Assembly (NCBI GenBank): GCA_016287245.1
Contig: JAEEWG010000007.1
Coordinates: 1 to 64,000, forward strand
Direction: 5' to 3'
From: Clostridia bacterium
GTDB taxonomy: Bacteria > Bacillota > Clostridia > Saccharofermentanales > Saccharofermentanaceae
DNA: 64,000 nt
Shown here in pieces: positions 39,068 through 53,357 of this stretch. The number at the start of each line of letters is the position of its first letter. Positions within the stretch are counted from its first letter, which is position 1. Both the position numbers and the translations under genes were made by a program. The notes beneath the pieces are model-generated. The model did not search any database. It was not told the DNA's origin and saw only the letters and a program-made list of their open reading frames with translations.

Positions 39068-40261
39068 ATGAAGATTTTAGTTATCAACTGCGGAAGTTCT
39101 TCCTGCAAGTTCCAGCTTTTCGAAACATCTACAGGCGACGTTCTTGCCAAGGGTAATGCTGAGCGTATCGGTATCGACGGCAAGCTCACATACAAGACAC
39201 CGGGTAAGGAAGATTTCGTCTGCACAGATCCGATGCCGGACCATAAGGTCGCTGTTAAGATGATCCTCGACGCTCTCGTAGATAAGGATCATGGTGTTCT
39301 TTCTGATATCGGCGAGATCAAGGCTGTCGGTCACCGCGTACTCCACGGCGGTAAGTACTACAGCAAGTCCGTTATCGTAAATGACGATGTTAAGCGCGTT
39401 ATCCGCGAGTGCTTCCCTCTGGGACCTCTGCACAATCCGGCAAACCTCACAGGTATCGAAGCCTGCGAATCCGTTCTTCCGGAAGGCACACCGCAAGTTG
39501 CCGTATTCGATACCGCTTTCCATATGACCATGCCGCCGAAGGCTTACACATATGCACTGCCGTATGAGCTCACAGAGAAGTATTCCATCCGCCGCTACGG
39601 TTTCCATGGTACTTCCCATCGTTATGTTTCCCGCCGTGCAGCAGAATTCCTCGGCAAGGACTATAACAACATCAAGATCATCACCTGCCACCTCGGTAAC
39701 GGCTCCTCTTTCGCTGCTGTTGACCACGGTAAGTGTGTAGATACATCCATGGGTCTTACTCCTCTTGCAGGTATCTGCATGGGTACCCGCTGCGGTGACA
39801 TCGACCCGGCTATCGTTCCGTTCCTTATGACAAATGAGAACATGAGCCCGGACGATATCGATGTCCTTATGAACAAGAAGTCCGGTGTTGAAGGCCTGTC
39901 CGGCGTATCCTCCGACTTCAGAGATCTCGAGAAGGCTTCCCGCGAAGGTAACGAGCGCGCAACTCTGGCTCTCGATATGTTCGAGTATCAGGCAAGAAAG
40001 ATCATCGGTTCCTATGCAGCAGCAATGGGCGGCGTTGACGTCATCGCATTTACTGCAGGTATCGGCGAGAACACGGACTACATCCGTGCAGCTGCCTGCG
40101 AAGGCCTCGAGTTCATGGGCGTTAAGATCGATCCTTCTAAGAACAACGGCGTTCGTTCCGAAGCTGTGATCTCTTCTGACGATTCCAAGGTAACTGTAGC
40201 GATCATCCCGACCAACGAGGAGCTCGCCATCGCACAGGAGACAGAAGAATTAGTGAAATAA
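39068..40261 (+). CDS. ackA: acetate kinase
   Basis: This 397-residue enzyme makes ATP and acetate from acetyl phosphate. Acetokinase signatures are visible: [17 protein letters not shown] at the start, [39 protein letters not shown] with the catalytic His, [28 protein letters not shown] and [13 protein letters not shown]. Length is typical. Codon bias resembles pta, again suggesting strong expression. AAGGAG precedes the ATG. Confidence 0.98.
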
Positions 40262-40267
40262 AAATCA

Positions 40268-40322
40268 GATCCCTTGACGGCTTCAGACAGTTTGCTCGTG
40301 CAAAACTCGACGTCTCGGGATC
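40268..40322 (-). repeat. structured element 1 (core shared with element 2)
   Basis: GATCCC (40268-40273) pairs with GGGATC (40317-40322), and GACG (40276-40279) with CGTC (40311-40314). Read on the minus strand the apex contains GAGTTTTGC, loop ACGA, GCAAACTGTCTGAAGCCG. This core closely matches the one in element 2 on the plus strand, while the outer stems differ. It lies just after the ackA stop; only a weak T-tract follows. Confidence 0.7.
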
Positions 40323-40354
40323 GAATTTTATACGCAATGATTTCATAAAGAAAT

Positions 40355-40440
40355 AAGAAGGAAAGGATCACTTCGAAGTGGCGAGTTTTTTGCGGAGCAA
40401 AAGCTGTTTGAGCCGAGGAGAAGTGAATCCTTTCCTTCTT
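40355..40440 (+). repeat. structured element 2 with a 20-bp outer stem
   Basis: The arm at 40355-40374 (AAGAAGGAAAGGATCACTTC) pairs with 40420-40440 over 20 bp with a single bulged A. The 45-base apex contains GGCGAG, a hairpin TTTTTTGC-GGA-GCAAAAG, then CTGTTTGAGCC. The same apex occurs inverted in element 1. It ends 13 bases before the ribosome site of the phosphatase gene, so it is in that gene's leader or in the ackA 3' region. No standard terminator tail follows. Confidence 0.75.
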
Positions 40441-40461: not shown

Positions 40462-41121
40462 ATGCGGATAATCATCGTGCGCCACGGCGATCCTGATTAT
40501 GAGAAGGACTGTCTTACCGAGCTTGGGAAAAAGCAGGCTGAGGCGGTGGCGAAGCGGTTGATGCCAGAGGGGATAGAGGAGATCTATTCTTCCTGTCTGG
40601 GACGCGCGAAAGAGACCGCGCAGGCTTTTTCGGACCTGTCCGGGATAAAACCGGTGCATATCCTCGATTTCATGCAGGAGATCCGTTTCGGATACGGGAT
40701 GGATCTTTACACGACGGGAAATCCGTGGGATGAAACGGATGAGATGTCGAAAAGAGGCGAAGACCTCACGGATAAGAACTGGCGCGGGCATCCGTTCTTT
40801 AAAGAAAATGCCGCGACCAGTGATGTCGATATGATCGCGGAAGCAACGGATAAGTGGATGGCCACTCTCGGATACGAGAGAGAAGGCCTTTACTACCGCT
40901 GCACGAGGGAAGATGCGGAAGAACATACCATCGTGCTGTTTGCGCATGGCGGATCAGGAACCGCGATGCTCTCGAGGATCCTGAATCTTCCGTTCCCGTA
41001 TCTATGCGCGATCGTGCGCATGCCACACACGGCGATCACGATCCTTCGGATGGATAAACGCCCGGGTTCCGTCACGATGCCAGTCCTGGAGCTCCTCTGT
41101 GATGCGGGTCATATCCGATGA
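40462..41121 (+). CDS. histidine phosphatase superfamily protein
   Basis: This 219-residue protein belongs to the phosphoglycerate mutase-like branch. The catalytic motif IIVRHGDPDYEKDC includes R7-H8-G9, YSSCLGRAKETAQAFSDL provides the second Arg, and LFAHGGSGTAMLSRIL the second His. An insertion near 95-120 (NPWDETDEMSKRGEDLTDKNW) is longer than in minimal members. The substrate is unknown. AGGAGG fixes the start. Confidence 0.92.
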   Translation: MRIIIVRHGDPDYEKDCLTELGKKQAEAVAKRLMPEGIEEIYSSCLGRAKETAQAFSDLSGIKPVHILDFMQEIRFGYGMDLYTTGNPWDETDEMSKRGEDLTDKNWRGHPFFKENAATSDVDMIAEATDKWMATLGYEREGLYYRCTREDAEEHTIVLFAHGGSGTAMLSRILNLPFPYLCAIVRMPHTAITILRMDKRPGSVTMPVLELLCDAGHIR

Positions 41122-53219: not shown

Positions 53220-53228
53220 CCTGTCGTA

Positions 53229-53348
53229 ACTTCAGGGCGGGGTGGAATTCCCCACCGGCGGTGATGTATCAAGAGAAGATACGAGCCCGCGAGCGAAGAG
53301 CTGAACCGGTGTGAATCCGGTGCCGACGGTAGAGTCCGGATGGAAGGA
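53229..53348 (+). promoter_or_regulatory. FMN riboswitch (RFN element)
   Basis: The RFN consensus is clear: ACTTCAGGGCGGGGTGGAAT, TCCCCACCGGCGGTGAT, GAGCCCGCGAGCG, CCGGTGTGAATCCGGTGCCGACGGT, AGAGTCCGGATGGAAGGAG. The aptamer ends in the ribosome-binding GGAAGGAG of ribU, with only 17 bases between this and the ATG, and no separate terminator hairpin follows. Control is therefore probably translational: FMN binding hides the ribosome site. Confidence 0.97.
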
Positions 53349-53357
53349 GTGATATAA

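Follow-up and report, generated by a model that had tools for sequence, protein, structure and literature searches.

Rho-independent terminators of Firmicutes are hairpins placed soon after a stop codon, with a U-rich tract and its A-rich complement at the base. Uptake signals of Neisseria and Pasteurellaceae are conserved short words situated in terminators, usually in 1,000 or more copies (PMC1852404), and REP/REPIN, BOX and RUP elements are interspersed intergenic hairpins that often lie near gene ends and sometimes form inverted pairs (PMC2267715, PMC3049150). Hairpins are also reshaped by template switching, whose footprints in DNA are double changes without wobble intermediates, homogenisation of the arms and inversion of the spacer (PMC8794818, PMC8604942). 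The window analysed here, a 64,000-nucleotide stretch of a clostridial contig, holds two hairpins that belong to an apparently new family of gene-end, terminator-like elements in rumen Clostridia, with dozens of copies.

The two elements of the window

Both hairpins lie between ackA (acetate kinase, 39068..40261, plus strand; Pfam PF00871, 1.5e-155) and a histidine phosphatase gene located 3' of element 2 (40462..41121, plus strand; Pfam PF00300, 3.8e-21). Element 1 (40268..40322, plus strand), read in the orientation of ackA, is a terminator-like hairpin that begins 6 nt past the ackA stop codon and is the gene-end hairpin of ackA. Its outer stem (40268-40273 paired with 40317-40322) is followed by GAATTTTAT. 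The apex on this strand has an asymmetric internal loop, in which UCAGACAG (40283..40290), the complement of CTGTCTGA, forms the long strand and ACUC (40305..40308), the complement of GAGT, the short strand, with the P2 mini-hairpin TTTGC-TCGT-GCAAA (40291..40304) between them; the apex in its GAGT form is on the minus strand. Element 2 (40355..40440), which is seen in the sequence, the fold and a covariance-model match, is opposed to element 1, with its core on the plus strand, and stands about 20 nt upstream of the phosphatase start. Its arms (40355-40374 and 40420-40440) form 20 bp with one bulged A around a 45-nt apex (40375-40419), coordinates that agree exactly with the stem, bulge and apex given in the earlier note, and its loop strands GAGT and CTGTTTGA are found at 40383..40386 and 40404..40411 of the plus strand. 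Aligned on one strand, both elements read P1 - GAGT - P2 hairpin - CTGTYTGA - P1', with the common core CGAGTTTTGCACGAGCAAACTGTCTGA (40283-40309, minus) in element 1 and CGAGTTTTTTGCGGAGCAAAAGCTGTTTGA (40382-40411, plus) in element 2.

A 101-nt stretch with element 2 folds with z = -6.2 on the plus strand and -8.2 on the minus strand, none of 200 shuffles being equally stable, and the fold of element 1 is weaker (z = -2.0 against shuffles, on either strand). R1, a covariance model based on 19 copies, matched element 2 at 40362-40431 (56.6 bits, 6.1e-15) and, on the minus strand, element 1 at 40262-40329 (54.9 bits, 2.3e-14), and found no match besides these two over the 64-kb window. Sequence, folds and model matches bear out the initial description of two real hairpins in opposed orientation with differing outer stems and one shared apex. 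The mRNA orientation of element 2 corresponds to the minus strand. No genuine gene has its end there, and the 166-aa minus-strand frame at that place is the complement of the phosphatase. Elsewhere in the window, an FMN riboswitch (RF00050, 109 bits) is located at 53224-53355.

Distribution of the family

The pattern CGAGTTTN{2,31}CTGTYTGA has five matches in the genome of the window, four being true elements and the fifth falling in coding sequence, and the reversed-pattern control has none. Over 58 genomes of the taxonomic family the core pattern is abundant in the genus of the window only, with up to 33 copies. R1 gave nine matches below 1e-7 in the window's own genome (about 10 copies), matches in all 23 sampled genomes of the genus and weaker ones in the sister genus. 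Copies number 1 to 33 in these 23 genomes, with a per-genome maximum of 33 by the pattern or 27 by the model, and fewer in the sister genus. Among 391 genomes of the class, the single genome outside the family that R1 matched was G251. A second, broader model trained for wider reach, R2, added one more sister-genus genome and a second clostridial family (three copies in G251) over the same 391 genomes, and over 398 genomes of the phylum it matched none except the window's own. Closer inspection of the second family revealed 12-15 copies each in G251 and G952 and three in G951. These elements (L095, L328-L356) are multicopy gene-end palindromes with a GAGUU / UUGUYUGA loop (in the DNA, GAGTT ... 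TTGTYYGA or something close to it) and a different, longer P2; their body sequence is more uniform and their outermost base pairs vary by locus. Named records with the core are metagenome-assembled genomes of rumen Clostridiales, one of which is filed as Mageeibacillus sp. UBA3781.

Rfam 15 has no match at gathering score at the window element (best sub-threshold E 2.8 and above), and at 12 further element loci it gave nothing but a neighbouring tRNA. A literature search by sequence string returned only unrelated papers among the matches listed. With strongly covarying stems, copies in many relatives and none in Rfam, the proposal of a conserved structured element is upheld; the element is neither confined to this genome nor merely a known Rfam terminator, the two outcomes that the earlier note had named as fatal to its reading.

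Viral contigs gave 0 matches to the exact core, and 12 matches to a looser pattern resembled, by eye, chance protein-coding sequence; a viral origin was rejected on these grounds. Separately, CTGTYTGAGCGNAGCGAGT was seen at 16 places in viral contigs, where it mostly forms the tip of a long hairpin. IMG/VR contigs L302-L309 and L312-L314 carry long hairpins capped CTGTYTGA-GCGNAGC-GAGTT, so that the loop strands of the family recur with their order rearranged. Several of these hairpins follow what we take to be P2-like terminase (gpM-like) or capsid (gpN-like) genes, names assigned from sequence without search, and are succeeded by a second hairpin. Rfam had no match at the element in the phage-contig hairpins, and two phage hairpins, compared by BLAST with annotated phages and plasmids, gave none either. 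The rearranged phage loop may be either the same motif or a coincidence.

Gene context and strand

In 58 of 74 elements, the stop codon of a coding frame lies at most 60 nt before the element on the mRNA strand, and in most copies a gene on the strand opposite the core ends 20-50 nt ahead of it. When genes of at least 140 aa ending at most 120 nt upstream were counted for 143 distinct elements, 79 had a gene end solely on the mRNA strand and 20 solely on the opposite one (p = 2e-9), 21 had one on each strand and 23 had none; at random positions, 377 of 429 had no gene end on either strand. Of the 30 second-family copies, 26 have their gene end on that same relative strand. Head-to-head pairs of elements often coincide with convergent genes, one element per gene (e.g., L098). 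Large tandemly repeated genes, one with a weak GH85_C match, were observed at G000:C22:121000-134891 (L137) and G016:C29:150000-163000 (L134); two have an element after each, and the copy number differs between the two species.

Since genes end opposite the CGAG...CTGTYTGA strand, the mRNA usually reads UCARACAG-P2-ACUC in the hairpin. By gene context, the transcribed strand in most copies is the complement of the one on which the earlier note had read the element. The orientation is not strict, because 20 of the 143 elements are reversed relative to their only adjacent gene and element 2 is without a gene end on its mRNA strand.

The lower stem has an A-rich 5' base and a U-rich 3' base (TTTCTTTTT), and a U tract comes straight after the stem, with the consensus ...GAGATTTCTTTTT; the GAATTTTAT tract of element 1 is weak. 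A stable hairpin soon after the coding region and an adjoining U tract are two features of an intrinsic terminator. At many loci an extra inverted repeat outside the hairpin spans the stop codon and last codons, and this outer repeat exceeded the 99th percentile of mismatched controls in 32 of 74 cases. Being situated past the U tract, the outer arm would be absent from a terminated mRNA.

Covariation and the conserved tip

A first alignment comprised core-pattern copies only, with clear chance coding matches dropped by eye and three further copies, most with an extra A, likewise left out by eye. Double changes were present in 11 of its 12 P0/P1 pairs, with 54 double-change cells; shuffling gave 16.6 +/- 3.8 and sliding no more than 13. 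With 98 distinct copies aligned to R1, and to that extent biased towards the model, all 12 pairs have double changes, P1 and P0 vary by locus, and the whole structure has 287 double-change cells versus 69 +/- 12 shuffled and at most 68 slid. The strict core pattern fits 86 of the 98 distinct genus elements and the internal loop GAGU / YUGUYUGA is near-invariant, an invariance that is in part the effect of searching with the core. In the same set, 22 variants of P1 and 40 of P2 plus its loop occur while the 4 + 8 nt loop is fixed.

Stem evolution and probable template switching

Behind orthologous genes in different species the tip is kept and the stems differ, as for glutamate dehydrogenase, EF-G, an SRP54-type GTPase, MscL, iPGM, ackA, CoA ligases, an ABC ATPase and others, some of these ortholog names being drawn from sequence ends alone. 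G000 and G016 are identical at the coding end and in the distal flank of the CoA-ligase locus, whereas the intervening element has been rewritten with its pairing preserved. Flanks identical over more than 150 bp surround a fully rewritten element when G000:C22:89348 is compared with G016:C29:119571, a local mutation hotspot. The ackA locus of 22 genus genomes holds, variously, an element of the element-2 type only, of the element-1 type only, both, decayed forms or unrelated terminators; several copies are decayed, and five genus members are without the element there. In G024 this locus has the hairpin of G003 and G044 inverted in place, with 50/54 and 52/54 identity when inverted versus 31/54 as it stands, and in G017 it has a perfectly homogenised arm and a truncated tip. 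Of the stem pairs, about 1.3% are G-U when one strand is read and 2.0% when the other is, as compared with 9.2% (21/229) in eleven local tRNAs. A strand-specific excess of wobble pairs was sought in elements with a one-sided gene, and none was clear (15 vs 8). Selection on the stems as RNA only was rejected, as wobble pairs are rare and without clear strand preference.

The earlier note had taken pairing retained without sequence conservation as the mark of a selected structure. Rare G-U pairs, changes that are nearly all double, inversion and arm homogenisation point instead to template switching, which is probably a main source of the stem pairing, the covariation being probably largely its product. 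These footprints weaken, for the stems, the argument that covariation proves selection. The asymmetric tip is not explained by switching, because switching would erase it, as in G017; together with the 79:20 strand bias, the tip points to selection.

Interpretation and rival readings

The reading given somewhat better than even chances is that of an intrinsic-terminator-type 3' element with a conserved, strand-asymmetric tip that is under selection and probably recognised as RNA. A gene-end hairpin, often part of a longer quasi-palindrome extending back across the stop codon, would bear the asymmetric tip, and RNA polymerase moving past the stop codon would transcribe the hairpin and the U-rich tract, whereupon transcription would end and the hairpin would provide the mRNA with a tough 3' end. 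The internal loop 5'-UCARACAG-P2-ACUC-3' would probably be read by a putative factor for termination or 3'-end stability. Template switching during replication would repeatedly copy one arm onto the other, leaving the stem sequence free, and selection would hold the tip, which could not come from switching.

The main rival places the element at the DNA level, as a REP/REPIN- or MITE-like dispersed repeat whose single-stranded or cruciform hairpin would be known by a recombinase and would settle behind genes, any terminator role being secondary. Many copies per genome, head-to-head pairs including that of the window, Watson-Crick-only pairing that is symmetric on both strands, second-family bodies fairly uniform as after recent spread, and the lack of a gene ending on the mRNA strand of element 2 all suit this reading, but each locus has a unique stem, insertions at the same gene are common to several species, and no copies were found in viral contigs. 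Moreover, of the 10 genus genomes tested, 8 have no Y1 transposase (PF01797), among them G000, G003 and G026, in which the element numbers about 10 to 33 copies; the transposase is present in 5 of 6 second-genus genomes, and neither of two second-family Y1-gene loci inspected has a copy of the element. A REP/RAYT system was rejected on the same Y1 observations and the unshared stems, and the dispersed repeat in its general form is considered possible though hardly probable. It is unlikely that the hairpins are ordinary bidirectional intrinsic terminators whose tip, common through descent and conversion only, has no function of its own: an A/U-rich base on both strands, gene-end placement, convergent gene pairs and the tips decayed at ackA in several species agree with it, whereas the 4 + 8 nt loop that stays fixed as P1 and P2 change, the identical loop on other stems in an unrelated family and the strand bias argue against it.

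Two narrower readings carry very little weight. The earlier likening to a kink-turn, here a GAG...CUGUYUGA RNA strand bound by an L7Ae/YbxF-type protein, agrees with the GA flanks, present on both sides on that strand only, and with the topology P1-GA-GU-P2 / P2'-CUGUYU-GA-P1', which would set tandem G.A pairs beside one helix; several phage contigs also bear a rearranged version on their gene strand. It is nevertheless very improbable, for the bulge has 4-5 nt, not 3, the strand in question runs antisense to the neighbouring gene in most clostridial copies, and the usual mRNA strand offers no GA/AG tandem. A DNA-uptake-type label inside terminators, as in Neisseria and Pasteurellaceae (PMC1852404), seems the most improbable of all, since the known pattern of a conserved short sequence in terminators is matched, but with a few tens of copies per genome at most versus the usual 1,000 or more, and with constraint on an internal loop and flanking helices, not on one linear word.

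A wider and doubtful conjecture would make GAGU/YUGUYUGA a modular nucleic-acid motif fitted into gene-end palindromes of unrelated bacteria, here two clostridial families, and into long phage hairpins with the rearranged order CUGUYUGA-GCGNAGC-GAGU, and served by a widely shared putative mRNA-3'-end factor.

Comparison with known systems

The family is a multicopy gene-end element, not described before, of uncultured bacteria that are abundant in the rumen. It is also a clear natural case of strong covariation, a signal usually accepted as proving a selected RNA, that probably arises largely through template switching. The asymmetric tip, unexplained by switching, marks the place to seek function, and if it binds a factor, it would provide a new point of access to termination in Clostridia or to the stability of their mRNA 3' ends.

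Like the Rho-independent terminators of Firmicutes, these hairpins follow soon after the stop codon with a U-rich tract and an A-rich complement at the base; unlike them, they have a long stem with a 2x2 loop and a fixed asymmetric 4 + 8 nt loop, and one tip is repeated at unrelated genes. With uptake sequences in terminators (PMC1852404) they share a genus-wide conserved word in gene-end hairpins, but copies number tens at most, and the conserved part is an asymmetric loop. They resemble REP/REPIN, BOX and RUP (PMC2267715, PMC3049150) as interspersed intergenic hairpins, often near gene ends and sometimes in inverted pairs, whereas their stems differ at nearly every locus and the tip alone is shared, and, in contrast to REP/REPIN, most genus genomes are without an associated Y1/RAYT gene. 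Finally, they share double compensatory changes, homogenised arms and inverted spacers with hairpin evolution by template switching (PMC8794818, PMC8604942), which is a mutational mechanism and not an element, and which here probably acts on one repeat family whose asymmetric tip is preserved.
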